Source: Rubripirellula amarantea
GTDB taxonomy: Bacteria > Planctomycetota > Planctomycetia > Pirellulales > Pirellulaceae
Direction: 5' to 3'
DNA length: 64,000 nucleotides
Assembly (NCBI RefSeq): GCF_007859865.1
Contig: NZ_SJPI01000002.1
Coordinates: forward strand, 1,446,721-1,510,720
Made by a program: the position numbers and the translations under genes. The notes beneath the pieces are model-generated. The model searched no databases, was not told the DNA's origin, and saw nothing but the letters and a program-made list of their open reading frames with translations. Shown here piece by piece: positions 6,001 through 60,639 of this stretch (position 1 is its first letter; the number at the start of each line of letters is the position of its first letter).

Positions 6001-9000
6001 CATTCTGCGATGTCACAAACGTCAAAAGCCCCGCGCCATCCTTGTTCGAGAATGCTGGCGGGCCTTGGTCATCGGGACGATCCAAATTGAACGGCAGTAG
6101 AACTACTTCCGCCAGTTCCATCTCGTCGCCGGCGATCACTTTGTACTTGCCAAAAATCCTGATCCCAATTTCATAGTAGGCGAACAACTTCGCGGAAAGT
6201 TGGCCACTGACGTCAAAGACGTGAATCGGACCGAGCTCGATATTGTCTTTCAGTTCGTCGAGGCGAATCTTTCCATCGCCCGATTGATCGTGAAGGTCGA
6301 AGGACACGTCAATGAAGATACCGCCACCCACGCCAGCACGGGCGACGCCGAGATTCAGTTCAAGTGCGGCCTTGAGCGCACCACTGAGCGTAACTTCGGG
6401 AACGTCGGCGCCTGAGCCATCGACGCTGGCCGTATCACTGATAAAAAAGCCCTTACTGATCAGGCTCGGTTCGCTGTAACCACTGGCTGCATACTGTCGC
6501 AAGCCGAACGTGTCGTAACCGAAGTTAAAATCAATCGCTGCTGCAACGCTGCCCGTGACTCGTGCTCCGATCGGTCCCCAAATCGGGAAGAACTGGCTGT
6601 ATTCAAAACCTGCACCAAACGATGGCATGTCGTACCCGAACAGGGTCACGTCTTGACCAAGCAGCAAGCCGAATGCGCTCGCTGGGTTTTCCAAGATAGG
6701 AAATTTGAATCCACCACCTCCAGAGAATCCAACGCTACTACTAAAGGCATCTTTCTGCGATTGACTAGCCGAGGGACTGGTAGATATCTGCGAAGAAATG
6801 TCCTCGACCACCGTGTCGAGAGGCACGATCTGGCCACGACCGCGTGAACTAAGCGCCAGCTTGCCATCGACATTGAACGATCCCATCGGTATCCAAGCAT
6901 CGCCATCGACGCCTTCGAGAAGTTCCGCCAAGTCGCTAATGTCACGTGCTGCGTAAATGAATTCGTTGTAGTCGCCGTAGCCGAAGAAATCGGCTAGGTC
7001 CAACAGCGTCACTGGGCCCGCCAAGTCACTGATCACGGGTAACGGATCCGTCAACACTTCGATCACCGGGCGTACCGGATCGATCACTTGGTTCACTCGG
7101 TCGACGATCGGACCCAAGAAATCACCCAGGAACGCACCCAGGTTCATTTCTACTGCGCCGAAGCTGACCTCCGGTGCCTTCGACAGATCGCTAAAAGCGT
7201 TGATCGTCCAGTTCAAACCAAAATCGGTTCGAAGTTGAGGGAAATCCTCTCCCACATTGGCCGTTAACGTCCAATCGACGATCACGGCCTTGTTGCCAGC
7301 AAGCGAGCCGGTGAACGTTGGCGTTTGGATCGACGAGAAAATTTCTCCCAGTTTCAGACGACCATCGGCACCTGGATCGAGATCAAACTTCAACACACCA
7401 CCAGCAGCCGTGGTTTGATTCTCGACCATCAGCTTTAGGAACCCAAGGTCGACGTCAAATCCATTGTAGGGCGCGTTGGCGTTCGGATCCCAAAGTTCAA
7501 CATCAAATTGAAAACTCAGATCGTCGTTTTTGGTTGGATTGAGCGCAATGTAAACCCCCTGACTCTTGTCCAAACCGATACCAACGTTGAATTGGTAGCT
7601 CGCCGTCATTCGCAGACTTAAGTTGTCGGGAACCTTTAGACCCAAACCCGGCAAACCCAAGTCCAACTTCAAGTCACCTAGCACGATCGTGTCGCCCAGC
7701 GGCAGGCTGTATTCGACATACTGAGGAACCGTGCCCGGACCGACGTCCAGCCCGACAGATCCAGTCAAGTGTGACGTCAATCGTTGTTCGAGCTGTAAAC
7801 GCAATTGCTGAGCACTCAAACCCGCTGGATTGAGACCACTGAGCTGATCGCTCAAACTATCGAGCAACCGAGTGACGTTGTAGAGTTGATCACCGATCAC
7901 AGGCAGCTTGATCTTCTTGACCTGCTTGGAAACCTGAGCTTCCATGAGTCCGATCAGCGATTCCCAACCGTCCAAGAAAGCGCTCAAGTCTGTCGCAGGA
8001 TTAAAATTGGCGAGCGCCGTCGAAAAGTCTGGCGTCGTGACCGTAAACGACGAGGGGTTGAGCAGGTTAGGTGCCGAGAGCGTGATCGATCCGACGGGAT
8101 TACTGACCGTGGGGAAGAACGTCGGCAGGTTCATTACCGCACCACCGGCAAAGCTGGTTTGCAATGCCGATGCGGTCAGGTTCGTCAAGTAACGACGACC
8201 ATCTTGCACGGCGTCGTCTTGAACTCGAGCGGTCAGTTTGGCTGGTAACGTGCTTGGCCCAGCACCGTCGGCGTCCAACACCACCGAACCATTGCGAATA
8301 TGAACGCCAAGCGGTCCGACCGATGCCGACATGTTGATTGGCCCAGGCGTGGAAACCTTGGCGGTCAAATCGAACTTTGTGCCCTGGTCTAGCAACCCTG
8401 TGCCGGTGTCGTTGGTGTACAAGAACGGTCGCAGGTCGTTGGGGTTGGATAAGTCGACACCTAGAGCCAACGTGAACGTTGCCCGCGCGTCCCCGGATAC
8501 TTCTGCTTTGCCCTTCGCGTCAACGAGTGGTCCGAGATCACCACCCAAGTCAAAGTTCAGTCCCAGCGATTGAATCGTCATTCGGTTCCAGCGAAATACA
8601 ACTTTCAATGCGTTGTTTTCAAATGCGATCGCCAAATCACCGCTCGGAACTGCGAGCGTTGTTTCAAGGGCTTGTTCCAAGTCCTGCAACGATTCGATCG
8701 CCCTATTTTGCAGGTCGTCCAAACTTGACTCCAGCTTGTCAGCAAAGGCCAGCAAATCGTTGATGCTGGTCTTGGTGCCGGGAATCGGATCGTTGAGCGC
8801 AGGCGTATCTTCAAACGATCGCAACAGATCGACCAATCGGCGCAGCGCATCAAGCATGCTCGGCTGATAGATCGGATCGCCGTCGATACCATCGTCGACG
8901 CTGGGGACGTCCAGGCCGAGCAGTTCCAGCATGTCGGAAACTCCGCCAGCGGAAACGGAAAACGTTCCCGTTGATGGTGTCGTATTATCGCGTAGCACCA

Positions 9001-45845: not shown

Positions 45846-47264
45846 CTAGGATTCCTGCCAACGCTCGAGCAGTCGATAGAGTTTGCGACGGTGGATTCCC
45901 AAACGTTTCGCAGCGCGACTTTTATTACCCGATTCTTGCTCCAGGACATCGAGCACATGAGCACGGGTCAAGTCATCGAGACTACCGCTTTGAGCGGTCA
46001 CGCGCAACGACACGGGCGACGATGGCGATCCGCCTGAGTGAACCGGTTGTCCCGGATGCACGATCTCGCTGGGCAAGTCATCCATCGTGATTTGATGATG
46101 GTCCGCCAGGATCGTTGCCCGATGGATCACGTTGATGAGCTCGCGCACGTTACCGGGCCACGAGTAACTTATCATCGCAGTCAACGCGTCATCATCAATC
46201 GACCAACCCTTAGCGAGGAAGTGTTCAATCAAGCACTTAACGTCCTTGCCACGCTCGCGAAGGGGCGGCAAGTGAATGGGAAGCACGTTGACTCGGTAGT
46301 ACAAGTCTTGACGAAAATCACCATTGGCGACGTCCGCCGCTAAGTCTCGATTCGTTGCCGCAACGACGCGTACATCGACCCGACGTTCCTTGGATGATCC
46401 GACACGACGGAGCGAACCGTCCTCTAGAACCCGCAACATCTTTGGCTGCAGGGCCGGCGGCAGTTCCCCGAATTCATCGATGAACAATGTTCCCCCATCG
46501 GCGACTTCAAACAGACCCGGCTTTTCTTCGGTAGCCCCGGTGAAAGCACCTTTTTGATGACCGAACAATTCACTTTCGACCAGCGATTCGGGCAACGCCG
46601 CACAATTGATCGTGACCATGGGTTTTCCCGCACGTTTACTTTGCGCGTGAATCGACTGCGCGATCACCTCCTTACCCGTACCGCTCTCGCCAGTGATTAG
46701 CACTGGTTCATTCGTGCTTGCAATCCGCTGGACCATTCGCACCACGGACTGCATTGCTGGTGAACTGCCAATCAAATCCGTTCGTGGTCGAGACCTGGAA
46801 ATGATTTCTCGCAGTTGCAGGTTCTCTTTGCGAATGCGACCACGTCGAGACGCCAATTGCAAATGCAGTTCTAAATCAGACAAGGGACATGGTTTGGTCA
46901 GGAAGTCGCTGGCACCTAGCTTCATGGCCTGCACAGCGGTTTCGATCGACCCTTGACCGGTTAGCATCACAACTTCGATATCGTGCGCGTCACCGCGCAA
47001 GCGTTGCAAAAGCTCCAGCCCTGACATCCCTGGCATGTCCATGTCGAACAATCCGACGTCGTAGTTTCGACGATCGAGCGCGGACAAGGCTTCGGCGCCA
47101 CCACAAGCGCCGAATGTGTCGTAACCCTTACGCGATAGCCATCGGACACACGATTCGCGAAAGTCGTTGTCGTCCTCAACGACTAAAATGGAAAAGGTTT
47201 TAGCATCTGCATCAACACCGGCGTCAAAGGCGCCCGATCTTTCGGCAACAAGTGGGTTATTCAT
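45846..47264 (-). CDS. NtrC-family sigma-54-dependent response regulator
   Basis: Encodes 472 residues. A receiver domain is at ~24-140 (VVEDDNDF, phospho-acceptor Asp74 in LFDMDMPGM, MLTGQ, TKPCP). The AAA+ domain is at ~165-400: Walker A ITGESGTGKE, the sigma-54 contact loop GAFTGA intact, Walker B GGTLFIDEFGELP, R-finger region RVNVLPIHLPPLRER, and sensor II SWPGNVREL. A Fis-type helix-turn-helix ends the protein (NKSRAAKRLGIHRRKLYRLL). On phosphorylation it should activate sigma-54 RNA polymerase at enhancer-linked promoters. Its ATG overlaps the upstream receiver gene by 4 bases. The divergent cbb3 oxidase cluster is the obvious candidate target. Confidence 0.95.
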   Translation of the reverse strand: MNNPLVAERSGAFDAGVDADAKTFSILVVEDDNDFRESCVRWLSRKGYDTFGACGGAEALSALDRRNYDVGLFDMDMPGMSGLELLQRLRGDAHDIEVVMLTGQGSIETAVQAMKLGASDFLTKPCPLSDLELHLQLASRRGRIRKENLQLREIISRSRPRTDLIGSSPAMQSVVRMVQRIASTNEPVLITGESGTGKEVIAQSIHAQSKRAGKPMVTINCAALPESLVESELFGHQKGAFTGATEEKPGLFEVADGGTLFIDEFGELPPALQPKMLRVLEDGSLRRVGSSKERRVDVRVVAATNRDLAADVANGDFRQDLYYRVNVLPIHLPPLRERGKDVKCLIEHFLAKGWSIDDDALTAMISYSWPGNVRELINVIHRATILADHHQITMDDLPSEIVHPGQPVHSGGSPSSPVSLRVTAQSGSLDDLTRAHVLDVLEQESGNKSRAAKRLGIHRRKLYRLLERWQES

Positions 47265-48028
47265 TTGGATTCCTCGCCTTTAATTTCTTTCAACAGTTGG
47301 CCCAAGTCGACGGGCTTTGTAAACACGCCTGATGCATTGTCTCGTACTAATTGCTCGATGATCCCACCAGCCTCCCGCGACTGCCCCGTCACGAGATAGA
47401 TCGAGGGACAGTGATCGCTTTGTTGCGCTGCGTAAAAAACATTCTTGCCTTCTTCCACCGATCCAAGACGCAGGTCTAACAGGACGATGTCAAACGACAT
47501 CTGACCGATACGCTGGACGGCTTCCGCTTCGCTCGCGGCAGTGCACACTCGGAAACCGCTATCTCGTAAGACTTGCCAAGCGTTCGCAGAAAACTCAACG
47601 TCGTCATCCACCACCAACACCAACGGTTGATTGCACGCGGTGCCCATCGCACCCAGCAATTCGCAAAGATCAATCGGCTTGCGAAGCACCTTCCAAGTTC
47701 CCAAATCGAGTGCGCGCTGCACTCCATCGCTACCGGCGTAGGCAGTGATCATGAAGGCAACCAAACATGGCTGGACCTTTTTGATCTCTTCGTACAACTC
47801 AGCACCGTTCATGCCGGGCATTTGGTAGTCAAGCAAAGCGAACGAATAGCACTTCTTTTTAAGTAGCTCGAGCGCTTCGTTGCCATTGTGCGCGATGTCA
47901 ACGCGATAGTTCAGGTCTTCGAGGATATCAGCCAGGTTTGCCGCGTTGTCGCTTTCATCGTCAACAACCAAAACGCTAATCGGTTCACGAAGACTCGACG
48001 AACTTTTCCTTAATGAGGTTTGGGTCAT
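47261..48028 (-). CDS. Dual receiver-domain protein
   Basis: Encodes 255 residues made of two CheY-like domains and nothing else. Domain 1 (~18-130): VVDDESDN, phospho-Asp in FALLDYQMPGMNG, MITAYAG, LRKPID. Domain 2 (~136-250): VVDDDVEF, Asp in IVLLDLRLGS, LVTGQS, TKPVD. No output domain is present, so it probably passes phosphoryl groups or gates the kinases. It lies between the PAS kinase and the NtrC-type regulator, with 4-base ATGA overlaps on both sides. A phosphorelay intermediate or phosphate sink is the most likely role. Confidence 0.92.
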   Translation of the reverse strand: MTQTSLRKSSSSLREPISVLVVDDESDNAANLADILEDLNYRVDIAHNGNEALELLKKKCYSFALLDYQMPGMNGAELYEEIKKVQPCLVAFMITAYAGSDGVQRALDLGTWKVLRKPIDLCELLGAMGTACNQPLVLVVDDDVEFSANAWQVLRDSGFRVCTAASEAEAVQRIGQMSFDIVLLDLRLGSVEEGKNVFYAAQQSDHCPSIYLVTGQSREAGGIIEQLVRDNASGVFTKPVDLGQLLKEIKGEESK

Positions 48029-49677
48029 TGATCATCCTCGCTGGATTGAGAACTGGACTCGGACGATTCTATCTCTCGAGTCGGCAACCAAATTCGAAAG
48101 GTAGTCCCTGTTCCCACTTTGCTGTCCACCGTGATCACGCCTCGGTTGTTTTCGATAATCGAGTACGAGATCGACAAACCAAGTCCCATGCCGTGAGGTT
48201 TGGTCGTGTAGAGAGGTTCGCAGATCATAGGAAGGGATTCTTCTGCAATTCCGGTGCCGGTATCACCGATGCTGATCAACACCTGATGAATTTCACCATC
48301 GCTACCTTCAACATTGTTGGCTTGGATCGTAATCGTACCGCCACCGGACATCGCGTCGCGTGCGTTGCGAAGAAGATTGCGAAACACAATCGCAATTTGG
48401 TTGGCGTCCACCACGACCGGCATCAGATCGCCAGAAAGCTCACGCTTGACCTGGATGGTACTGGCGATTTCGATTGTCGAAATAGCGTCGTCAATCAACG
48501 CTTGCACGACCGCCGGGTCCCGGTTGGGTTGCGGCATTCGCGCACCATCGGACAACACGGAAACGACATTATTGATCAGAGAAACTTGGCGATCGATTCG
48601 GCGGAGGTGTTCGAGCTGTTTTTCCTCGCTCGCTTGCCTCGCATTAATAAGGTAGTAAGCGGAAGTCTTGATGGCGTTGAGCGGATTTCGGATCTCATGC
48701 GCGATACTTCCGGAAATTCGTCCTAAAACGGCCAACCGCTCTTGTTGAACCAATTTTGCCTGTGCGGCTTCGAGCTCACGTGTGCGTTCTCGCACTTCCC
48801 GCTCAAGCCAAGCTTGCCGTTCCTGTTGATCGGTCACATCAGCAACGAGGACTACGTAGTGAGTTAGCACATCGTCGTCATCATGCACCGGAGATACATC
48901 CACTTGGCCCCAGTAGGCACGACCCGTCGCGTGTTGACAACGCAGCACAAGGCTCGCCGATTCGCCACGCACCATTGCGTCGTTGATGCCGGAAAGCGAC
49001 ATATCGCTATCACCACCAAGAATTGCGCTGATGGACTTGCCCAACAACCATGACGAGGAATGCCCAGTGATCTGAGTCAATGCGGGATTAGCAGACTCGA
49101 TTGGGAAATTCGGTTGTCGTGCGTCGAGCACACAAATGCCTTGACGAGCAGCAGTGAGCGCTCGAGCACTAACCCGCAATTGCGATTCAATGCGACGTCG
49201 ATCCGACAAGTCGCGTATCATTCCCGTAAAGAACTTTCGCCCCGCGGCATTGGATTCACTCACCGCAAGGTCGATGGGAAATACGCTGCCGTCTTTTCGC
49301 ATCGCGACGACTTCACGTCCGATACCGATGATCTTTCGCTCATGAGTACGAGCATAGTTATCCAGGTAGCCATCATGCTGGTGCCGATAAGGCTCGGGCA
49401 TCAACATGCTGATGTTCCGGCCCATCAATTCGTCCGGCACATAGCCAAACATCGTGGTCGTAGCGGGATTCACCGATTCAATTAGGCCTCGCTCGTTGAT
49501 CGTGATGATCGCGTCAACCGCATTGTCGAGAATCGCTTTCAATTCGGCTAGCCTTCGCGGGTCACCGGTATCGCCAACATTGGCTTGCGCCGCGTGAACC
49601 TTCGGATCATCGGAACTAGGATCACCTGGATCGGGTTCACCTGCACCATGATCATGAAACGGCTTTGACTTTTTCAC
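48025..49677 (-). CDS. FixL-like PAS-PAS sensor histidine kinase (probable haem oxygen sensor)
   Basis: Encodes 550 residues with no signal peptide or membrane segment. The first PAS (~40-165) is closely FixL-like: MLMPEPYRHQHDGY, RKIIGIGR, MRKDGSVFPIDLAV, FFTGMIRDL. Haem-pocket residues of Bradyrhizobium FixL are kept at the right spacing: His101 (His200), Ile116 (Ile215), Arg121 (Arg220), Leu137 (Leu236); Val139 replaces Ile238 and Asn107 replaces Arg206. A second, non-haem PAS is at ~168-290, then a coiled segment, H-box SIAHEIRNPL with His327, N-box FRNLLRNARDAM, and G boxes DTGTGI and GMGLGLS. It should phosphorylate the receiver proteins encoded beside it according to oxygen level. Overlaps neighbours by 4 bases. 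Confidence 0.93.
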   Translation of the reverse strand: MKKSKPFHDHGAGEPDPGDPSSDDPKVHAAQANVGDTGDPRRLAELKAILDNAVDAIITINERGLIESVNPATTTMFGYVPDELMGRNISMLMPEPYRHQHDGYLDNYARTHERKIIGIGREVVAMRKDGSVFPIDLAVSESNAAGRKFFTGMIRDLSDRRRIESQLRVSARALTAARQGICVLDARQPNFPIESANPALTQITGHSSSWLLGKSISAILGGDSDMSLSGINDAMVRGESASLVLRCQHATGRAYWGQVDVSPVHDDDDVLTHYVVLVADVTDQQERQAWLEREVRERTRELEAAQAKLVQQERLAVLGRISGSIAHEIRNPLNAIKTSAYYLINARQASEEKQLEHLRRIDRQVSLINNVVSVLSDGARMPQPNRDPAVVQALIDDAISTIEIASTIQVKRELSGDLMPVVVDANQIAIVFRNLLRNARDAMSGGGTITIQANNVEGSDGEIHQVLISIGDTGTGIAEESLPMICEPLYTTKPHGMGLGLSISYSIIENNRGVITVDSKVGTGTTFRIWLPTREIESSESSSQSSEDDQ

Positions 49678-50789
49678 GTCGCCACCTCAGTTCGATCCGA
49701 GGAGTCGGCCGCGCTATTGCTCGCGTCTTGATGACAGGGCAACTCAATCACAAACGTTGCTCCCTCTGAATTGTCACCGGCGTACACTCGGCCACCATGT
49801 GCGTCGATAATTCTTCGCACAATCGCTAGCCCCAATCCCGTTCCTTCCGGCTTAGTGGTAAAGAACGGCTCGAAAAGTTGAGCCAATTGGCATTCGGTAA
49901 GTCCCGGGCCATCATCGGTGACGAAAATGCGGACGCACTTCACTGGCCCTCGACTCGCCTTTTCTAATCGAATTGTAATGTTTGATTTGCCTGAGCACGC
50001 AGCGATCGAGTTCTCAAACAAGTTGCGAAACACCTGCACCATCCGCATCGGATCGACATAGCACCGTAGTGGAAAATCATTGGGCGCCACCGTGAGCGTT
50101 GACTCTATTTTGAGCTCTGGGGAAAGGTGGCCCCAAGCCTTGACCCAAATCTGGTCAAGGTGCACCTCTTGGCGGTGCAAATGAATGGACGATGCAAAGC
50201 TGCGAATTTCCTCGAGCATTGCCTGTAGATCGCCGGCCGCTGAACGAACGTTGTGCACATCCCTGAGCGCCTCTTGATCACCGGCCACCGACAATTCAAG
50301 TAGATCCGTCGAGGCGGCGATTCGCTGCAACGCGTTGCGACTTTCGTGAGCCACCGATGCCATCATGCGTCCGATCGTCGCCAAACGCTCGTCTTGCCGA
50401 GCACGCTCTTCCATCTCCCTTAGTCTGACCGTACGAGCCAATGAAGCTCGCAACATGTCAGGATCAATCGGCTTGGGAATGAAGTCCGCAATCCCGTGAC
50501 GAATGACCCCGATCGCGCCCTCGAGGTCAGCGTTGCCAGTTACCACGATGACTGCGGCTTTGGGCGCCAGATCCCGAATCATCGGTAACAATAGATCTGC
50601 GGAACCATCGGGAAGCCGTCGATCTAAGATAATCGCGAACAACGATTCCCAATCTCGTGGCTGCATCGTTTCAGCAATGGTTGCGGCAACGTCAATGTCG
50701 TAGCCGTCAATCTCTAAGATGTCGCAGAGGTTTGATCGAGTGTCAGGATCGTCTTCAATAATCAGAACGCGTGGGTTGCGAGAGTACAT
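49674..50789 (-). CDS. Receiver-histidine kinase hybrid protein
   Basis: Encodes 371 residues, cytoplasmic. An N-terminal receiver (~6-120) has IIEDDPDT, Asp in IILDRRLPDGS, VVTGNAD and PKPID. It is followed by a kinase core with H-box ASVAHESRNALQRI (HEIRNP in most relatives), N-box FRNLFENSIAA, and G boxes DDGPGL and GTGLGLAI. Receiver-first kinases act as phosphorelay components whose kinase activity is set by their own receiver. It is the first gene of the four-gene signalling operon and its stop overlaps the FixL-like kinase start (ATGA). No ribosome site is obvious at the ATG at 50789. Confidence 0.93.
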   Translation of the reverse strand: MYSRNPRVLIIEDDPDTRSNLCDILEIDGYDIDVAATIAETMQPRDWESLFAIILDRRLPDGSADLLLPMIRDLAPKAAVIVVTGNADLEGAIGVIRHGIADFIPKPIDPDMLRASLARTVRLREMEERARQDERLATIGRMMASVAHESRNALQRIAASTDLLELSVAGDQEALRDVHNVRSAAGDLQAMLEEIRSFASSIHLHRQEVHLDQIWVKAWGHLSPELKIESTLTVAPNDFPLRCYVDPMRMVQVFRNLFENSIAACSGKSNITIRLEKASRGPVKCVRIFVTDDGPGLTECQLAQLFEPFFTTKPEGTGLGLAIVRRIIDAHGGRVYAGDNSEGATFVIELPCHQDASNSAADSSDRTEVAT

Positions 50790-51515
50790 AACGTCGTTTC
50801 AAGCTCGTTTCCGATCGTCGCTGGGCTATGACCACGGGACAAACGATGGGGCGAATAAAAGGTGGACTGCTTAACGTGTACTGATCAATAAGTCGCCTGC
50901 GTTCGCTAAAACGTCTGCGAACGCCTGCGGTGGACAATGCGACGGCGATACACCATTCGTCTGAAACAGACATGATCGCATTGCATCATCAACACGTAAC
51001 GATAGGACGGGGAGTGAAACCTTCGCTTGGATGGACCTAAGCCTGGCGCTGCGAACCATTGGCAAATGCCGAGCCATATCTTCACCAACCTTTGCAGGGC
51101 GGCGTTGAAGCCATGCAATAACGCGCAGCAAAAACAAACGTTTCGCATGCGATCTTTTTGTTTTTGTTGTCTGCATAGGTCACCGAACCGTGCGATCACA
51201 ACAGCGTGCAGTATAGCACATCGGACGTGCGACCCGGCTCACACGCACACTTGGTAGACTGTGCAGTGCGTCACACAGACTCAAAATCAGACTGCGACGG
51301 AATGTCCAGCGCTATCCGGAAAACCCAGCTTTCGCGGATGTTCCGTTCCCGTGTATTCTGCTGATGCCAATTGCTAGCTGTTCCTTGGCACAGAGAGTGA
51401 ACGTAGGGCACCCCATCAAACATTTCTTCACCGTCTCAACGAGGCGATACGCTCATTTCGTAGCGATTCGTCGTTGGACTCGTAATCTTCATCTCACCAA
51501 CAGAGGGAACTCCTG
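50790..51515. other. Divergent control region between the signalling operon and the cbb3 cluster
   Basis: These 726 bases hold no supported gene. An AT-rich inverted repeat (51129-51138 with 51157-51166, 10 bp arms) and a candidate -24/-12 element (51386-51401) are visible. No FNR-type ttgat-n4-atcaa palindrome was found. Short frames here have neither domains nor ribosome sites. Confidence 0.55.
51386..51401 (+). promoter_or_regulatory. Candidate sigma-54 (-24/-12) promoter of the cbb3 cluster
   Basis: TGGCACAGAGAGTGAA has a perfect -24 box (TGGCAC) and the correct spacing, but the -12 element reads GTGA instead of TTGC, losing the normally conserved C. It lies 115 bases upstream of the ccoNO start. 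An NtrC-family activator gene sits on the other side of the region. The match is suggestive only. Confidence 0.3.
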
Positions 51516-53942
<2,427 letters not shown>

Positions 53943-53992: not shown

Positions 53993-54172
53993 ATGCTTAA
54001 AGATGTCATTCGGGCGATTGACTACAGCGATTGTGCGGAAATCGCCTTGGCGTTGTTCTGCGGCGCTTTTTTGTTGATGACATTCGCGACGCTACGACTA
54101 TCGCGTCGAGCGACCGATAAGTTTGCTTCCATTCCCCTTTCCGATTCTGTTCAGGACCCGCGCGATGAGTAA
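53993..54172 (+). CDS. ccoQ: Small CcoQ-like cbb3 oxidase subunit
   Basis: A 59-residue frame fills the position of ccoQ between ccoNO and ccoP. It reads MLKDVIRAIDYSDCAEIALA, then LFCGAFLLMTFATLRLSRRA, and ends FASIPLSDSVQDPRDE. One membrane helix followed by an arginine-rich cytoplasmic edge and a short xxIPLxD segment is the CcoQ layout. CcoQ stabilises the interaction of CcoP with the CcoNO core. Its TAA overlaps the ccoP start by 8 bases (ATGAGTAA), indicating coupling. Easily missed because of its size. Confidence 0.8.
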   Translation: MLKDVIRAIDYSDCAEIALALFCGAFLLMTFATLRLSRRATDKFASIPLSDSVQDPRDE

Positions 54173-54887
54173 GAAGCTCACCGATCAAGACAACACCGGC
54201 ATTCCCGATGATCCGCTGACCGGACATCAATACGACGGGATCGAAGAATTTGATAATCCGCTGCCCGGATGGTGGAAGTGGATTTTCGTGCTTTGCATCT
54301 TGTTCTCAATTCCCTACACGCTGTTTTATCACGGCGGTGCGGAAGGCCGTTCCATCGAAGAAGGTTATGAAGTCGCATTAGCCGATAACCTGCGATTGCA
54401 GTTTGCCGAGATCGGCGAACTCAAAGCCGACCGCGCTAACGTCATCAAGTTCCTCTACAAGCCCAACATGCTTTCGATCGGGAAAGCGGTCTTCAAATCC
54501 AATTGCACATCGTGCCACGGAAGCGATGGGGGTGGTTTGGTTGGTCCCAACCTTACCGACGAAGAATACAAGAACGTGAAAGACATCGGTGACTTCATCA
54601 ACGTGCTCGAGAACGGAGCCGGTGCTGGGGCAATGCCAGCGTGGAAGAATCGACTTTCCACGAACGAAATCGTCATGGTTTCCTCATACGTGGCTTCCTT
54701 GCGTGGGACAGTTCCCGCTTCAGCAAAAGCACCTCAAGGAAACAAGATCGCCCCTTGGCCGCCAGCACCCGCTGAAGAATCGGAAGAAGAAGCTGAAGAA
54801 TCGGAAGAAGAACCCGAAGAAGCAGCCACTGGCGACGACACCAACGAAGAAGTATCCAGTGACGAGCCGGAGACACCTGAACTCTAA
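54165..54887 (+). CDS. ccoP: cbb3 oxidase subunit III, single-haem form (CcoP)
   Basis: Encodes 240 residues. The N-terminal DGIEEFDNPLPGWWKWIFVL at ~24-43 is the CcoP signature plus membrane anchor. Only one haem c motif is present (CTSCH at 114-118) with a likely axial Met157 (GAMPAW); typical CcoP has two haem c domains. The C-terminus (~205-240) is a highly acidic tail built on a duplicated 21-base unit (EESEEEAEESEEEPEE). It transfers electrons from periplasmic cytochromes to CcoO. The ATG overlaps ccoQ by 8 bases. Confidence 0.93.
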   Translation: MSKKLTDQDNTGIPDDPLTGHQYDGIEEFDNPLPGWWKWIFVLCILFSIPYTLFYHGGAEGRSIEEGYEVALADNLRLQFAEIGELKADRANVIKFLYKPNMLSIGKAVFKSNCTSCHGSDGGGLVGPNLTDEEYKNVKDIGDFINVLENGAGAGAMPAWKNRLSTNEIVMVSSYVASLRGTVPASAKAPQGNKIAPWPPAPAEESEEEAEESEEEPEEAATGDDTNEEVSSDEPETPEL

Positions 54888-54982
54888 TTCCCTCACTGGA
54901 TCAATCAGAGACTCATACCGCGGTCGGATCATAATCCTCACAACCGCGATTTGCATCAACGGTGATTCAATTGAATGACCCG

Positions 54983-56539
54983 ATGGACAATCGACCGAGC
55001 GAAATCCGAAGCAACCGTGATGTTGGCTCGTCAGTTGCACTACCGATTGAATCAGGCGGTTGTGCTAACTGCTCGAATTGTACATGCCAAAATAGCTCTG
55101 AGTTTGAAATGACTGCGTCCGACCCTCAACCTTCCCCAACGGCTCGCGAATCGTCAACTTCGCTACCGCTACTCGATGCACCCGAGCACGTGCTTAGCAC
55201 GTTAGAAGCAGACGGGTCGCGTCGCTGGTTGCGTCCGCGTTTATCGACGGGTGACTTGTGGAAACGACGCCGAATTGTCGCCTATGCATTGATTGCTTTC
55301 TTTGTCGCGTTGCCTCATTTGCGCATCGCCGGAAAGCCGCCTGTGCTGATTGACATATTGGCGCGCGAGTTCACCATTCTTGGGCACACTTTTTTGCCAA
55401 CTGACACACTCTTGCTTGCGTTAGCAATGCTTTTCGTGTTCGTCGTCATTGTCGCAACGACCGCCATATCGGGACGCCTTTGGTGCGGTTGGGGATGTCC
55501 GCAAACGGTCTACATGGAATTCGTGTTTCGTCCGATTGATCGATTGATCGAGGGCACAGTCGGCAAGGGTGGAAAACCTAAGGGGCAGGTATCTGCGGGT
55601 CGATCGGTGCTTCGAATTGCGATCTATCTAGTCATCTGCACGGTACTGGCTCACACGTTCCTGGCTTACTTCGTCGGAACGGACCGATTGGCGGGCTGGC
55701 TAACCGGGTCACCATTCACGCACCCCGTTGCCTTTTTGGTGATGGCTGGCGTGACGGCATTGATGATGTTTGACTTCTTAGTCTTCCGAGAACAAATGTG
55801 TCTGATCGCTTGTCCGTATGGTCGCTTTCAATCAGTGATGCTTGACCGAAACAGCTTGATTGTCGCGTATGATGAACCGCGCGGTGAACCGCGAAAGAAA
55901 GGCAAGCATGTCACCGGCGACGGCGCTGGTTCCTGTGTGGACTGCAATCGATGTGTGGATGTGTGTCCTACCGGCATCGACATTCGCAATGGCTTACAAA
56001 TGGAATGCATCAATTGCACTCAGTGCATTGACGCATGCAACGATGTGATGGATCGCGTCGGTGCCCCTCGAGGCTTGATCCGTTATTCATCGCAGGATGC
56101 GATTGACGGCAAGCCTCAAAAATTCCTTCGGCTGCGGACGATCATTTACCCGCTTATTTTGATCGCCCTATCAGCCGCTTTCGTGACGGTGCTGTCAACG
56201 AAGTACGCATTTGACGCCCGTTTGATGCGTGGTACGGGCAATCCGTTCTATCGAACAAACGATGGACAAGTCGCCAACCGATTCCGCTTGCGATTAACCA
56301 ACCGCACCGAGGAAACCCGAAATTACCGAGTCACGGCTTTCGAGCCTGCCGGAACGACGGTGACCTTTACGGAAGTTGGTGAAGTGAGTTTGCCGAAGGG
56401 TGGCAGCGAATTGTTGTCAATGACGATCGCGGTTGACCCCAAGGTCATTAAGAATGGACGCGCGGACGTTTCCGTCACACTGGCGGACGACTTAGAGAAC
56501 GAGCGTGTCGTGACCGCGCAGATACTAGGTCCGAGGTAG
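54983..56539 (+). CDS. ccoG: Cytochrome c oxidase accessory protein CcoG (FixG)
   Basis: Encodes 518 residues from the ATG at 54983; a GTG at 54962 would add seven. Core features: RRIVAYALIAFFVALPHLRI, LWCGWGCPQTVYMEFVFRPI, REQMCLIACPYGRFQS, two [4Fe-4S] motifs CVDCNRCVDVCPTG and CINCTQCIDAC, and a C-terminal Ig-like domain (~400-515). Five membrane helices are visible. CcoG is a copper(II) reductase needed for cbb3 assembly. Unusual here is an N-terminal CANCSNCTC cluster (about residues 26-34), upstream of the first helix and not part of the normal family, possibly a metal-binding extension. Confidence 0.93.
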   Translation: MDNRPSEIRSNRDVGSSVALPIESGGCANCSNCTCQNSSEFEMTASDPQPSPTARESSTSLPLLDAPEHVLSTLEADGSRRWLRPRLSTGDLWKRRRIVAYALIAFFVALPHLRIAGKPPVLIDILAREFTILGHTFLPTDTLLLALAMLFVFVVIVATTAISGRLWCGWGCPQTVYMEFVFRPIDRLIEGTVGKGGKPKGQVSAGRSVLRIAIYLVICTVLAHTFLAYFVGTDRLAGWLTGSPFTHPVAFLVMAGVTALMMFDFLVFREQMCLIACPYGRFQSVMLDRNSLIVAYDEPRGEPRKKGKHVTGDGAGSCVDCNRCVDVCPTGIDIRNGLQMECINCTQCIDACNDVMDRVGAPRGLIRYSSQDAIDGKPQKFLRLRTIIYPLILIALSAAFVTVLSTKYAFDARLMRGTGNPFYRTNDGQVANRFRLRLTNRTEETRNYRVTAFEPAGTTVTFTEVGEVSLPKGGSELLSMTIAVDPKVIKNGRADVSVTLADDLENERVVTAQILGPR

Positions 56540-56624: not shown

Positions 56625-57167
56625 ATGCCCTACGAACCGGAACGAATTGTTTTCGACGCCCGCGCTAATCGCAACGCAGCAATCCGCTGGGGTGGTGTCG
56701 TGGTCGGGTTCTTGACGTTTACATTGTGCTTAGGATTCGCCGCCATCACGCTTGCCACTCAAGACCCATCCGTGGCGATTGTCCCCGACTATTACCAGAA
56801 AGCTTTGGACTGGGATAAAACCGAAAAATTGCGGCGTGATTCGGAAGCACTTGGCTGGGTTGTTCAAGCGAGCGTCGGTTCCGACGGCACGCTTCATATT
56901 GACTTGCGGAACGCGGACGGACTACCGATCAAACTACGCAGCGGAACCGTAGAAATATTTCGTCACGCGCGAGCCAACCATGTCGTCACCCGCAACGTCA
57001 CCGCATCATCATCGGGAACGATCTCAATTGCGGACGTAGTTACCCACAATGGTCTTTGGACGTTCCGATTGGACTTGTTGAACGACCTGGGCGATCATTT
57101 TGTCATGTCGACTGACCATCGTGTAGAAATGGGTTCGTACCCTTTGAATAGCAACAATAAGGATTAA
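56625..57167 (+). CDS. ccoH: CcoH/FixH family cbb3 assembly protein
   Basis: Encodes 180 residues. One membrane helix at ~20-45 (WGGVVVGFLTFTLCLGFAAI) is followed by the FixH signature ATQDPSVAIVPDYYQKALDWD, where the DYYxKxLxWD pattern is diagnostic. A periplasmic beta-sandwich domain then runs to ~170. FixH is required for cbb3 assembly and associates with the CcoI copper transporter and the oxidase core. It sits between ccoG and the TauE-like gene, which starts 4 bases after its stop. Confidence 0.9.
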   Translation: MPYEPERIVFDARANRNAAIRWGGVVVGFLTFTLCLGFAAITLATQDPSVAIVPDYYQKALDWDKTEKLRRDSEALGWVVQASVGSDGTLHIDLRNADGLPIKLRSGTVEIFRHARANHVVTRNVTASSSGTISIADVVTHNGLWTFRLDLLNDLGDHFVMSTDHRVEMGSYPLNSNNKD

Positions 57168-57171
57168 CCCA

Positions 57172-57975
57172 GTGTTGGCTTTTGGGATAGCGATCTTCAC
57201 GGCTTCTTTGTTGGGCAGCCTGCACTGTGTTGGCATGTGCGGTCCGTTCGCCTTGTGGGCGACCGGCACCGACAAGCGTGCGTCAGTAATCGGGGCTTAC
57301 CATTTCGGGCGTCTAACCACTTACCTATCGGCGGGTTTAGCGGCCGGATTGATCGGTTCGACGTTAACGATCACTGGTGAAGTTGCCGGCTTCCAATCGT
57401 TGGCTGCCAAAATTGCTGGAACAACGCTGGTAGTCGTCGGACTTACACAGTTGATCGGTCGCTATCGTGCTTACCATCGAACGACTGACAGCACCGAAGG
57501 CCCCAAGCCGTCAAAGATCGCCGGATACCTTCACGCCGCAAAACCACTGATCGCTTCGCAAGGTCCCGTCGGTCGCGCTTACCTGGGCGGACTGCTAACG
57601 ACGTGGCTGCCCTGTGGATGGCTGTACTTGTTCGTCTTGGTCGCCGGAGGAACCGGAAACGTGGTTTCTTCTTTGGTTGTCATGACGGCATTTTGGATCG
57701 GAACGCTGCCCGCATTGTCAGGACTTATCTTGGGTGTCCATACGCTGAGTGATCGTTTCCGATCGTTGATTCCAATCGCGACGAGCGTGCTTTTGATTCT
57801 AACTGGTATGTACACCGCGACCGGGCGAGCGACCGCAGACTTGACTCAGATGAATCCTGATGCAATCGTTCGCGGTGTCAACGCCGATCCGAGTGCAGCG
57901 ACGCTCGAAAAGCTTTGCGATGAACCGCTGCCTTGCTGCCAATGCGGCCAGCATGCAAAGACATCCGATGACTAG
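57172..57975 (+). CDS. TauE/UreH-like membrane protein of the cbb3 cluster
   Basis: Encodes 267 residues from a GTG at 57172. Six to seven membrane segments. The GSLHCVGMCGP motif near residues 16-26 and GGLLTTWLPCGWLY near 140-153 place it in the UreH/DsbD-like transporter family often found beside ccoI/ccoS in oxidase clusters. Those relatives are thought to move copper, thiols or reductant across the membrane; some are called CcoS-associated or sulfite-exporter-like. The C-terminus carries a cysteine-rich tail (CDEPLPCCQCGQH), a plausible metal-binding element. The stop overlaps the ccoI start by 8 bases. Confidence 0.85.
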   Translation: MLAFGIAIFTASLLGSLHCVGMCGPFALWATGTDKRASVIGAYHFGRLTTYLSAGLAAGLIGSTLTITGEVAGFQSLAAKIAGTTLVVVGLTQLIGRYRAYHRTTDSTEGPKPSKIAGYLHAAKPLIASQGPVGRAYLGGLLTTWLPCGWLYLFVLVAGGTGNVVSSLVVMTAFWIGTLPALSGLILGVHTLSDRFRSLIPIATSVLLILTGMYTATGRATADLTQMNPDAIVRGVNADPSAATLEKLCDEPLPCCQCGQHAKTSDD

Positions 57976-60442
57976 CGTTCTTCGTAGTTCGGTGGCTTGC
58001 GTTCATTGCGGGCTGCCTTCGCCGCCACCGGCGCGACCGGACGTCCCAGCGTTTTGCTGCAACGGTTGTCGCGGTGCTTATGAACTAATCCGCGGCTGGG
58101 GTTTGGAAGACTATTACGCGATTCGCGACGATAGTGGTGCCAGTCCCGCGACTGAAAAGGACTCGCGGTTTGACGACCTAGACCACCCATCGCTCTTGGG
58201 CGCATCCGCACCGGTACTCGTCCATGATTCCGATGGGAACGAACTACTGCGTTCACGTCTGTGTATCAGCGGTTTGCACTGCGCAGCATGCTTGTGGCTG
58301 CTTGAACGTGCGCCCGAACGCGTTGACGGATGGTTGTCGTCTCGAGTCCGCATGCACGAACGCACCATCGAGATCACGTACGATCCCGCGACTGTACCAT
58401 TGTCGAAGATTGGGTCGCTGCTGCAGAAACTCGGGTACGAAGTGTCCCCATTGGGTAAAGATTCAGGACATTCTGAAGCCGCGACTCTTGAAAGTCGCCA
58501 GTTGCTTGTCGATATCGCGATCGCTGGATTTTGTGCGGCCAATGCGATGTGGTTGGCAATTGCCCTGTATGCGGGAGCATTCACGGGTATCGAAGCCGAG
58601 CACGCAAACGCGTTTCGAATCGCTGGTGTGGTTCTCGGATGCATTGCGGTGCTTTTTCCAGGCCGAACCTTCTTCCGTGGTGCCCTGGCGTCCATTCGTA
58701 CACGAACGCCGCACATGGATTTACCCGTCGCCATCGGGTTAGCTGCGGGTCTTGGCGGCAGTCTTTATGGGTTACTCGACGCGAATCGTGAAATCTACTT
58801 TGATTCCATCGCCGCCCTAGTGTTCTTCTTACTCGTAGGCCGTTGGTTGCAAATGCGGCAACAGCGTCGGGCGGGAGACGAAGTGGCAGGACTGATTCAA
58901 CTCGCTCCCGCTGTTGCAACTCTGCGAAAGAGCGACGGAACAACCGAGCGAGTCACATGTGATACGCTTTCGATTGGCGATACGGTTCTGGTTGCACCAG
59001 GGGAAAGCGTTCCCGTGGATGGAGTGGTCGTCGATGGCAAGTCGTCCATTGATCGCTCGCTGTTGACGGGCGAAAGTGTGCCGGTTGAAGTCGTGGTGGG
59101 AAGCCTCGTCGAAGCGGGTACCGATAACTTGCAATCGCCCCTTGAGATCACGGCGACATTGGTAGGTTCGCAAACTCGTTTATCGCAACTTACTTCTGCG
59201 GTAGCCGATGCGGCCGCCTCTCGAACGCCCATTGTTCAACTCGCCAATCGCATCGGAGGCTGGTTCGTTGCGATCGTACTTGTGCTGGCCATCGCCACGT
59301 GGGTTTACTGGTGGAACCGCGATCCGTCGTCTGTTGTTGGTCATGTCGTGGCGCTACTGATCGTGGCGTGCCCGTGCGCACTGGCACTTGCCACGCCGCT
59401 GGCGATAGCTGCGAGCATCGGAAGGCTTGCGAGTCGAAAAGTCCTCGTTCGTAGTGGTGAGTGCTTAGAACGGATCGTTGGAAAAGGAACCATCTTTTTC
59501 GACAAGACCGGCACACTAACGACCGGTCGCATGAAGGTAATTCACTGGCACGGTGATCCCGAATGGTTGGCGATCGCTGCATCCGCTCAAACTTATGTGC
59601 GTCACCCGATTGCTGCGGCATTAATCGAATACGCGAAGGACTGCGACGTTGATCCCGCCGAACATTCCGATTGGACGATCAACGTACTTCCAGGGATTGG
59701 CATCGAGGCCCAAGGAACGCCGATGGGCACCATTCAAATTGGCAACGCGAATGTGGTGAGCGACGCCATTGATGAACCATGGAACGAAATTGCCAGCCGG
59801 ATTCGCAAGGAAGGTGGCAGCCCTATCTTTGTCACCGCGAACAACTCGATTCGAGCCGTGTTTGGAACCGCCGACGCGATTCGCGATGAATCGCGTGCGG
59901 TAGTGAAGCACTTCCAGGACCTCGGTTGGAAGGTTGGCATCTTGTCGGGCGACCACCGCGCGACGGTGGCCGAGGTGGCTGCGAAACTTGGCGTTGATGC
60001 CGAGCGAGCGCGAGGCGAAATGATGCCGGACGAAAAACTTGATGCGATAAGGAAAGCATCACTTGATGGCATTGTCATGATGGTCGGCGACGGACTCAAC
60101 GATGCAGCGGCGCTTGCGGCGGCGGATGTAGGCGTCGCCATTCGCGGCGGTGTGAATGCATCGCTTGCGGCCGCCCCCATCATCATCGGCGACGGCCGCC
60201 TTGGTGGATTGGTCACGCTTGTGTCGATGGCCGGGACGACTCGCCGTGTTATTTTGCGAAACTTGGCGTTGTCGATAAGCTACAACGTTGTGGCGGTTGC
60301 CCTAGCGATGAACGGCATGATTACTCCTTTGATAGCCGCGATTCTTATGCCGATCAGTTCGCTCACGGTGATCCTTGCCACCATCGCCGGCGTGCGACTT
60401 CCCGAAGACTTAAGTTCCTCCAACTCGAAACCAACACGATGA
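57968..60442 (+). CDS. ccoI: Copper-translocating P1B-type ATPase CcoI (FixI)
   Basis: Encodes 824 residues from the ATG at 57968; ATG 57953 is an alternative. The N-terminus has the FixI zinc-ribbon-like CVHCGLPSPP...CCNGCRGAYELI at ~11-43, then an HMA domain with GLHCAAC near 98. Eight membrane helices, the CPC motif in VACPCALALATP, actuator LTGES, phosphorylation DKTGT, HP in YVRHPIAAAL, and the hinge GDGLND are all present. It exports copper from the cytoplasm for the CuB centre of the cbb3 oxidase. It belongs to the ccoGHIS block, overlapping both neighbours. Confidence 0.95.
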   Translation: MTSVLRSSVACVHCGLPSPPPARPDVPAFCCNGCRGAYELIRGWGLEDYYAIRDDSGASPATEKDSRFDDLDHPSLLGASAPVLVHDSDGNELLRSRLCISGLHCAACLWLLERAPERVDGWLSSRVRMHERTIEITYDPATVPLSKIGSLLQKLGYEVSPLGKDSGHSEAATLESRQLLVDIAIAGFCAANAMWLAIALYAGAFTGIEAEHANAFRIAGVVLGCIAVLFPGRTFFRGALASIRTRTPHMDLPVAIGLAAGLGGSLYGLLDANREIYFDSIAALVFFLLVGRWLQMRQQRRAGDEVAGLIQLAPAVATLRKSDGTTERVTCDTLSIGDTVLVAPGESVPVDGVVVDGKSSIDRSLLTGESVPVEVVVGSLVEAGTDNLQSPLEITATLVGSQTRLSQLTSAVADAAASRTPIVQLANRIGGWFVAIVLVLAIATWVYWWNRDPSSVVGHVVALLIVACPCALALATPLAIAASIGRLASRKVLVRSGECLERIVGKGTIFFDKTGTLTTGRMKVIHWHGDPEWLAIAASAQTYVRHPIAAALIEYAKDCDVDPAEHSDWTINVLPGIGIEAQGTPMGTIQIGNANVVSDAIDEPWNEIASRIRKEGGSPIFVTANNSIRAVFGTADAIRDESRAVVKHFQDLGWKVGILSGDHRATVAEVAAKLGVDAERARGEMMPDEKLDAIRKASLDGIVMMVGDGLNDAAALAAADVGVAIRGGVNASLAAAPIIIGDGRLGGLVTLVSMAGTTRRVILRNLALSISYNVVAVALAMNGMITPLIAAILMPISSLTVILATIAGVRLPEDLSSSNSKPTR

Positions 60443-60639
60443 GTGTTTTGTATGTCGCCCTACCCGTTGCGATTCTGATGGGAGCCGCTGCCATGATCGC
60501 CTGTATCAAGTGCATCCGAGGCGGCCAGTACGACGACCTCGAGGGCGCCTCGGTAAGGATGTTGATTGACGACGAGCCCATAAGGAACGGAACGGCGAAG
60601 AACGGTACGGCGAAGAACAGGTCCACGAAGAAGTCATAA
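60439..60639 (+). CDS. ccoS: cbb3 oxidase maturation protein CcoS
   Basis: Encodes 66 residues. A single membrane helix (YVALPVAILMGAAAMIACI) is followed by the CcoS signature GGQYDDLEGASVRML-IDDEP. CcoS is required to insert haem and copper cofactors into the oxidase. The ATG overlaps the ccoI stop by 4 bases (ATGA). The C-terminal tail is basic and built on a 15-base tandem repeat encoding NGTAK twice. Confidence 0.93.
   Translation: MSVLYVALPVAILMGAAAMIACIKCIRGGQYDDLEGASVRMLIDDEPIRNGTAKNGTAKNRSTKKS

Follow-up and report, generated by a model that had tools for sequence, protein, structure and literature searches.

A kinase gene of Rubripirellula amarantea encodes a PAS domain resembling the haem-PAS of FixL and lies divergently from a cbb3 oxidase cluster, which raises the question of whether an oxygen sensor governs the oxidase, through which proteins and with which sign. 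The window is the whole stretch of 64,000 nucleotides of this genome that was analysed. Direct oxygen sensing controlling the high-affinity oxidase was the original prediction for this locus. The presence of a FixL-type PAS beside the cbb3 genes stands; the kinase is not FixL/FixJ-like and appears to occupy the NmpU position of a four-protein relay. Published NmpU inhibits the next kinase, so control of the oxidase by oxygen sensing needs one more sign change than was assumed.

Composition of the locus and its FixL-type sensor domain

The sensor kinase gene belongs to a group of four minus-strand genes in the order S-U-T-R, named here after the Nmp relay of Myxococcus xanthus, in which each neighbour pair overlaps by 4 bp. 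Their features, with the supporting evidence in brackets, are:

49674–50789, minus strand: NmpS-type kinase, 371 aa, N-terminal receiver and HisKA-HATPase (domains, homology searches)
48025–49677, minus strand: NmpU-type sensor kinase, 550 aa, FixL-PAS, PAS2, HisKA and HATPase (domains; kinase core in the NmpU group)
49210–49545, minus strand: PAS1 of the sensor kinase (residues 45–156), FixL-type haem-PAS (Pfam PAS, PDB matches, pocket residues and, weakly, the PAS tree)
49375–49377, minus strand: His101, predicted proximal haem ligand, FixL His200/His194 (PDB matches, pocket alignment, codon check)
49315–49317, minus strand: Arg121, predicted distal arginine, BjFixL Arg220 (PDB matches, pocket alignment, codon check)
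48820–49191, minus strand: PAS2 of the sensor kinase, between PAS1 and the kinase core, limits approximate (two Pfam PAS stretches)
47261–48028, minus strand: NmpT-type protein, 255 aa, two receiver domains and no output domain (domains, tandem-receiver search)
45846–47264, minus strand: NmpR-type sigma54-dependent response regulator of the NtrC family, 472 aa (Pfam/NCBIfam domains)
50790–51515, no strand: divergent intergenic region of 726 bp between the relay operon and ccoNO (ORF map)

The kinase His in the HisKA domain of the sensor kinase is His327 (48697–48699, minus strand). No FixJ or FixK gene is found in the relay cassette, where the partner of the kinase is of the NtrC type, and the NCBIfam FixL model NF041777 scores 228.3 bits on the kinase, far below its cut-off of 850. 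A stand-alone FixL/FixJ-type pair was ruled out by the kinase core, the neighbour genes and the receiver specificity residues, which point to a relay.

The genes on the other side of the intergenic region are:

51516–53942, plus strand: ccoNO, fused cbb3 oxidase subunits I/II (Pfam/NCBIfam)
53993–54172, plus strand: ccoQ candidate, 59 aa (position; similar ORFs in relatives)
54123–54887, plus strand: ccoP, FixP_N and one cytochrome c domain (Pfam/NCBIfam)
54962–56539, plus strand: ccoG (Pfam/NCBIfam)
56625–57167, plus strand: ccoH (FixH) (Pfam)
57172–57975, plus strand: DsbD_2-family membrane protein, between ccoH and ccoI (Pfam)
57860–60442, plus strand: ccoI, copper P-type ATPase (subfamily models; true start probably further downstream than that of the ORF)
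60439–60639, plus strand: ccoS (TIGR00847, over cut-off)

By its predicted products this is a nearly canonical fused-ccoNO cluster with recognisable ccoN, ccoO, ccoP, ccoG, ccoH, ccoI and ccoS. The completeness first claimed for it holds by models for ccoNO, ccoP, ccoG, ccoH and ccoS. The gene in the CcoI position matches no CcoI-specific model; subfamily models (NCBIfam) make its product a heavy-metal P-type ATPase. The 59-residue CcoQ candidate has no Pfam or NCBIfam match and is assigned by its position and by similar ORFs (42–81% identity) in 11 of the 20 relatives' cco loci. CcoP, with one CxxCH counted by eye, scores under the NCBIfam ccoP cut-off.

The FixL haem-pocket positions reported for the stretch 49300–49560, which encodes PAS1 on the minus strand, were borne out by a codon-by-codon check of the kinase numbering (N107, 49357–49359; I116, 49330–49332; I119, 49321–49323; L137, 49267–49269; V139, 49261–49263; all minus strand), by the pocket alignment and by PDB matches to FixL and DosP. 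Six of the seven positions compared are kept: His101 falls on the FixL proximal His, Ile116 and Ile119 on the distal pair Ile215 and Ile218, Arg121 on Arg220, and Leu137 and Val139 on Leu236 and Ile238/Val232. PAS1 thus has the proximal His, the distal Arg and all the hydrophobic distal residues. Asn107 stands instead of Arg206, and the salt bridge of Arg206/Arg200 to the haem propionate has no counterpart there. Val139 had been counted as a departure from FixL and is not one; FixL of S. meliloti, whose sequence was taken from pSymA, also has Val at this last pocket position, so that Asn107 is the sole pocket difference. The latter is real and recurrent, being present in 13 rows with His101 among the FixL-like PAS of relatives (PAS1 included) and in the cco-linked kinase of relative G643. 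Arg206/Arg200 was not taken as defining haem binding because the A, Q, E and H variants of S. meliloti FixL Arg200 still bind haem, with near-identical haem, oxy and CO spectra, and autoxidise in air (excerpt of PMC10765370).

Searched with phmmer against the PDB, PAS1 matches 14 distinct sequences at E<=0.001, seven from FixL, six from DosP and one from a multi-sensor kinase, with FixL 1d06 as best match (1.5e-35). Two of the six DosP sequences stand in the PDB under other names ('yddU'; 'Heme pas sensor protein'). The control set came from 80 kinase loci chosen for their kinase cores, in which a search with PAS1 at E<=1 gave 15 PAS rows that cover the pocket. His101 occurs in three of these 15 rows, His101 together with Arg121 in none and the full pocket set in none. 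In a PAS tree, from which 14 rows had been dropped (10 near-copies or repeats and 4 divergent PAS rows), a 62-row set (92/91) unites PAS1 with the FixL sequences of S. meliloti and B. japonicum. PAS2, DosP PAS-B and two NmpS PAS domains lie apart from this set, and DosP PAS-A just outside it. Placement among non-haem PAS domains, which would have spoken against the original prediction, was not seen, but the test is weak because the FixL set also took in L028, L029, L128_PAS, L130_PAS2 and L131_PAS2, five rows that lack the pocket His and of which two are plainly misaligned; the inner forks of the tree have no resolution. These sequence comparisons give good support to a predicted haem-PAS sensor of the FixL type next to the cbb3 genes, and we infer that PAS1 binds haem b and O2. 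Note that PAS2 lacks a haem pocket, with Leu instead of His at the pocket column.

Kinship of the relay with the Nmp system

In M. xanthus the protoglobin kinase NmpU transfers phosphate to NmpT and to the receiver of NmpS, which keeps the latter inactive, while unphosphorylated NmpS phosphorylates NmpR (excerpts of PMC11841059 and PMC6211767). The targets activated by NmpR include a P-type ATPase/cbb3 operon (excerpt of PMC11841059), and the excerpt of PMC6211767 records that NmpR was not phosphorylated by NmpU. Homologues of nmpSTU in Planctomycetes were already mentioned in 2018 (Bretl 2018, excerpt of PMC6211767). The window has the corresponding adjacent genes for a receiver-kinase, a tandem receiver, a sensor kinase and an NtrC-type regulator. 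The kinase at the NmpU position carries no protoglobin according to Pfam and has the FixL-PAS instead. The four overlapping genes thus reproduce the composition of an NmpS-U-T-R relay with a FixL-type PAS in the place of protoglobin.

The kinship was examined with window NmpS as query in five genomes at E<=1e-30; 150 candidates were scored in each of the three genomes that passed. Matches were obtained in Corallococcus, Hyalangium and Pyxidicoccus, the best one lying each time ~1.4 kb from a protoglobin kinase; none was obtained at this threshold in an Archangium or in a Myxococcales MAG. The Corallococcus and Hyalangium stretches hold the globin-kinase, tandem receiver, receiver-kinase and NtrC genes together, and in the Pyxidicoccus stretch just the two kinases were recognised. 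When a myxobacterial NmpS was used as query in the reciprocal search, window NmpS was second of 47 matches (134.7 vs 137.9 bits) and, among the matches listed, one of two spanning receiver and kinase. A scan of the genome collection with an NmpS alignment was unspecific, retrieving generic kinase patterns, and served to reach the myxobacterial genomes and as background; a phylum survey for NmpS, with 5 candidates scored per genome, was left out of the counts.

A tree of 54 kinase cores contains one branch (98/87) that separates U-type from S-type cores with few exceptions, namely the receiver-first L283, on a long branch, on the U side and the globin kinase L248 on the S side. The U side comprises the cores of the window kinase, of the relatives' globin kinases and of the myxobacterial globin kinases, supporting homology of the window sensor kinase core to NmpU. 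Six FixL-type U cores form one clade (100/100) within a 16-row set (96/96) that includes ten globin cores, and the five other FixL-PAS kinases of the tree are all on the S side. Twelve long-branch or unrelated rows, including the FixL-PAS kinases L134, L135 and L137 (other cores), and 4 short cores, including both pieces of the split globin kinase of G560, were dropped before this tree was built. A single clade of the 11 FixL-carrying kinases of the kinase-core tree is rejected (p-AU 6e-46), and the PAS was therefore joined to at least two kinase cores. AU tests did not prove nesting of the FixL-type U cores inside the globin U cores, the p-AU being 0.48 for the ten relatives' globin rows as one clade and 0.245 for all 13 globin U rows; the direction of the sensor swap therefore rests on distribution and not on the tree.

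The receivers were compared at five positions that we take, from the Spo0F-type specificity literature, to be those for partner recognition. In the window they read DTNDI in NmpS, DNNDI in NmpT receiver 1, EFNQV in NmpT receiver 2 and DFSRW in NmpR, so that NmpT receiver 1 and the receiver of NmpS have matching specificity residues, unlike NmpR. Those of Hyalangium read AFNEL, AFNEI, ALNEV and NAATI, in the same order. Over the whole first helix, window NmpS matches receiver 1 at 7/13 positions vs 3/13 for receiver 2, and receiver 1 is also the closer one in G003 and G040; the pattern is weaker in Hyalangium (6/13 vs 6/13) and in G044 (receiver 1 4/13, receiver 2 5/13). Likeness of the NmpS receiver to NmpT receiver 1, with a different NmpR, is the published specificity logic (excerpt of PMC6211767).

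Distribution of the sensors and their link to cco

NmpT-like tandem-receiver matches occur in at least 24 genomes, window included, when three overlapping searches are pooled (with passes in 5 of 392 genomes at phylum level, in 5 of 60 among the relatives and in 19 of 246 at order level); these counts are lower bounds, as few candidates were scored per genome. From the annotation of neighbour genes, the sensor in these 24 genomes is a protoglobin kinase in 11 and a FixL-type U in five (the window genome, G000, and G003, G540, G643 and G566), the other eight having another sensor or no call. NmpT is a single receiver in G643 and G566, and the FixL-type U of G566 is cut by the contig end, which leaves the last 32 PAS residues. 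A sixth FixL-type U, that of G001, was found by PAS search. The FixL pocket is seen in five of the six; at position 107 the kinases of the window and of G643 have Asn, those of G003 and G001 Arg, and that of G540 Trp. All six belong to the family of the window genome, in which one other genome, G613, carries globin. When the window genome and G003, G001, G012, G540, G643, G566 and G613 were searched with the Pfam protoglobin model, the match in G613 was strong (114 bits) and the other genomes had partial matches of <=27 bits or none; the window genome has one partial PF11563 match away from this locus, just over cut-off (26.9 vs 25 bits).

FixL-PAS kinases lie near cco genes in several relatives. 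G001 and G012 have a FixL-PAS kinase with an S-type core following ccoS, and in G001 this gene is followed by an NtrC gene whose product is 57% identical to the window regulator; no NtrC gene stands beside the kinase of G012 in the stretch fetched, nor does one occur in the sequence retrieved on either side of the G003, G540, G643 and G566 cassettes. Among the 17 FixL-like PAS matches (E<=1e-30) in cco-bearing genomes, window included, three lie <=10 kb from ccoNO, against a chance expectation of about 0.05 by hand estimate, with the proviso that G001 and G012 may represent one event. G643 is a further case: its receiver-kinase, FixL-kinase and receiver genes have the orientation of ccoNO and end 1.55 kb upstream of it, and no ORF >122 aa lies wholly inside the gap.

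Promoters were compared among 20 loci fetched from the 27 relatives with a ccoNO match, leaving out locus L105, which is cut at a contig end. A sigma54-like TGGCAC-N5-TTG is found upstream of ccoNO in 3/3 cco-linked relatives and in 0/17 others. It was first noticed in the promoters of G001 and G012 and then found in G643, and the 17 unlinked loci include L092 and L093, with <1.3 kb upstream shown, where a linked regulator is possible. The looser form TGGC-N7-TTG[CT] is present in 6/21 ccoNO promoters. The intergenic region of the window has two sigma54-like elements:

51386–51399, plus strand: weak sigma54-like element TGGCAC-N5-GTG upstream of ccoNO (P 0.23–0.27, not significant)
51061–51076, minus strand: sigma54-like element TGGCTCGGCATTTGCC, directed towards the relay operon (P 0.027 for that strand, two strands tested)

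The first is a degenerate copy of the element of the cco-linked relatives. The second is the best sigma54-like site of the intergenic region and possibly the promoter of the relay. Upstream of window ccoNO there is neither a significant sigma54 site (P 0.23–0.27) nor a significant operator (P about 0.14), and neither the M. xanthus NmpR consensus nor consistent FNR-like boxes were found. A repeat of the type GTGCG-N6-CGCAC, derived from the G001 and G012 promoters, is not significant in the window or in G643; one copy recurs in G003 (L100).

Sign of the switch and competing readings

AfGcHK, the NmpU of Anaeromyxobacter, shows kinase activity with O2 and none in the Fe(II) form, which is the reverse of FixL (excerpt of PMC8697598). 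The NmpU core inhibits NmpS, therefore normal FixL behaviour of the window kinase would shut cco down at low oxygen. This clash between FixL polarity and relay sign implies a different wiring or else an inverted coupling. Linker changes do invert the response of engineered kinases, and the inverted variants span several registers (excerpt of PMC11164954). The spacing from the D-x-[ST] motif to the kinase His is 36 residues in S. meliloti FixL and 54 in 5/5 directly coupled FixL-type NmpU, a linker 18 residues longer in these relatives of the window kinase; in the latter it is 47 after PAS2 (54 minus 7). We favour inversion of the coupling by a re-phased sensor-kinase linker, as a guess from this spacing.

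The reading that we prefer, and that is probably correct, is that the sensor kinase occupies the NmpU position of an Nmp-type oxygen relay acting on cco, with a FixL-type haem-PAS replacing protoglobin and with inverted sign. PAS1, binding haem b and O2, would keep the kinase on in its O2-bound form, opposite to rhizobial FixL. The kinase would phosphorylate NmpT receiver 1, as phosphate sink, and the NmpS receiver; NmpS with an unphosphorylated receiver would phosphorylate NmpR, and NmpR~P with sigma54 RNA polymerase would switch on the cco operon at scarce oxygen. The re-phased linker (54 vs 36 residues, 47 after PAS2 in the window) would set the inverted sign. More tentatively, the replacement of globin by FixL haem-PAS on an NmpU core, with re-phasing of the linker, may have kept the circuit functional and yielded a natural O2-activated FixL kinase within a relay of four proteins that governs a cbb3 oxidase.

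No sign inversion would be needed under classic FixL logic, in which the absence of O2 activates the haem-PAS kinase, which switches cco on by phosphorylating the NtrC-type regulator directly or by activating NmpS, with NmpS and NmpT as accessory proteins. FixL polarity is known (excerpt of PMC8697598), and the FixL-PAS kinases that follow the cco clusters of G001 and G012, that of G001 beside an NtrC gene, have cores of the S type, to which the kinase that phosphorylates M. xanthus NmpR belongs; a short FixL-to-NtrC route therefore seems to exist in the genus. However, the window kinase has a core of the U type, the specificity residues make NmpS and NmpT receiver 1, rather than NmpR, its likely targets, and M. 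xanthus NmpU did not phosphorylate NmpR according to the excerpt of PMC6211767. We consider classic FixL logic unlikely here, though still the most credible of the alternatives.

Another reading keeps the Nmp-type relay but places its regulon elsewhere, the cbb3 cluster being a chance neighbour. It agrees with the lack of a significant promoter or operator at window ccoNO, with relative L091, whose ccoNO is the closest (82% identical) and which has none of the four regulator genes in the 8.8 kb upstream or ~2 kb past ccoS, and with G003, where cassette and cco are >2 Mb apart. It is made improbable by the excess of FixL-like PAS matches near ccoNO (3/17 within 10 kb vs about 0.05 expected), to which G643 adds one, and by cbb3 being an NmpR target in M. 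xanthus (excerpt of PMC11841059). No less improbable is that PAS1 is FixL-like in look and senses redox, haem itself or NO/CO, or binds no haem. Asn replaces Arg206, pocket residues alone are no proof of haem, the PAS tree did not cleanly part haem from non-haem rows, and a single-sequence structure model of PAS1 (mean pLDDT 41.5) was not usable. Against this, the six other pocket positions are kept, 13 of the 14 PDB matches are to FixL or DosP, which are known haem sensors, and the Arg200 variants of S. meliloti FixL retain their haem, oxy and CO spectra (excerpt of PMC10765370).

The preferred relay has in common with NmpRSTU of M. xanthus and the AfGcHK system of Anaeromyxobacter the four domain architectures and gene adjacency, the receiver specificity logic and an NtrC-type sigma54 output; its U and S cores lie on the same branch sides as in three other myxobacteria, the M. 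xanthus proteins themselves standing outside the comparison. The cbb3 operon is a known target in M. xanthus and a likely one in the window. The window relay differs by a sensor made of a FixL haem-PAS and a second PAS instead of protoglobin, by the gene order S-U-T-R in an operon divergent from cco, and by the C-terminal helix of the regulator, which is unlike the myxobacterial ones. Haem-PAS sequence, pocket and the link to a cbb3 oxidase are shared with FixL of S. meliloti and B. japonicum, whereas the kinase core is NmpU-type and, unlike in FixL-FixJ, has as neighbours the receivers of a relay whose output is a sigma54 activator of the NtrC type. Searches of open-licence papers brought up no account of a FixL haem-PAS in an Nmp relay. 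Two unrelated haem oxygen sensors with opposite kinase sign on one kinase core amount to a natural experiment on sensor exchange and sign setting, and the exchanged-sensor relay predicts how these bacteria control respiration at low oxygen. The FixL-PAS kinases L130, L136, L138 and L139 of relatives likewise have a sigma54 regulator within ~3 kb, but with S-type cores and no NmpS or NmpT seen, a shorter circuit than the window relay; in L134 and L135, FixL PAS and NtrC are paired with yet other kinase cores.

Candidate promoter and operator elements, and CcoP of the window

The top sigma54-like site of the window's intergenic region is TGGCTCGGCATTTGCC at 51061-51076, which is oriented toward the relay operon (minus strand; NmpS-, NmpU-, NmpT- and NmpR-type genes), as if a sigma54 regulator controlled the relay too. 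An operator-like 16-mer repeat, TGGCGTTCCGACGCA[GT], is found 5' of ccoNO in loci of three relatives (L100 from genome G003, L097 and L099). The CcoP coding gene of the window (54123-54887) displays by eye a single CxxCH motif and its product scores under the NCBIfam ccoP cut-off; from its sequence, this protein is possibly a one-haem CcoP.

Sensors carried by Nmp-type kinase cores

The kinase core of the NmpU kind bears additional sensor types. Two kinases with this core adjoin a gene coding for an NmpT-like tandem receiver protein: the sensor is a PAS without the haem His in one (locus L128, genome G147) and dCache-HAMP in the other (L129, G435). At L248 (G044, 5267-8841) a protoglobin kinase with the NmpS-type core adjoins an NtrC-type regulator, a pair that is the globin counterpart of the short circuits in which a FixL-PAS kinase with that core lies near such a regulator.

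FixL-like PAS in other architectures and Nmp cassettes of other families

Reading frames of 1295 residues at L057 (G128) and L058 (G107) carry at least four FixL-like PAS in tandem, each keeping the proximal His and the Arg of the Arg220 position, with Ser in the distal Ile218 column. At L284 (G180) NmpT-like and sensor parts are apparently fused: one 743-residue frame holds a pair of receivers together with a PAS and a FixL-like PAS. In other families, genes for CcoI-like P-type ATPases are found near the globin-type Nmp cassettes of L275 and L281 and near the L289 cassette, which is cut by the contig end. L281, the one of these three loci whose cco-like neighbours were checked against NCBIfam, also has a CcoN-like gene near its cassette.
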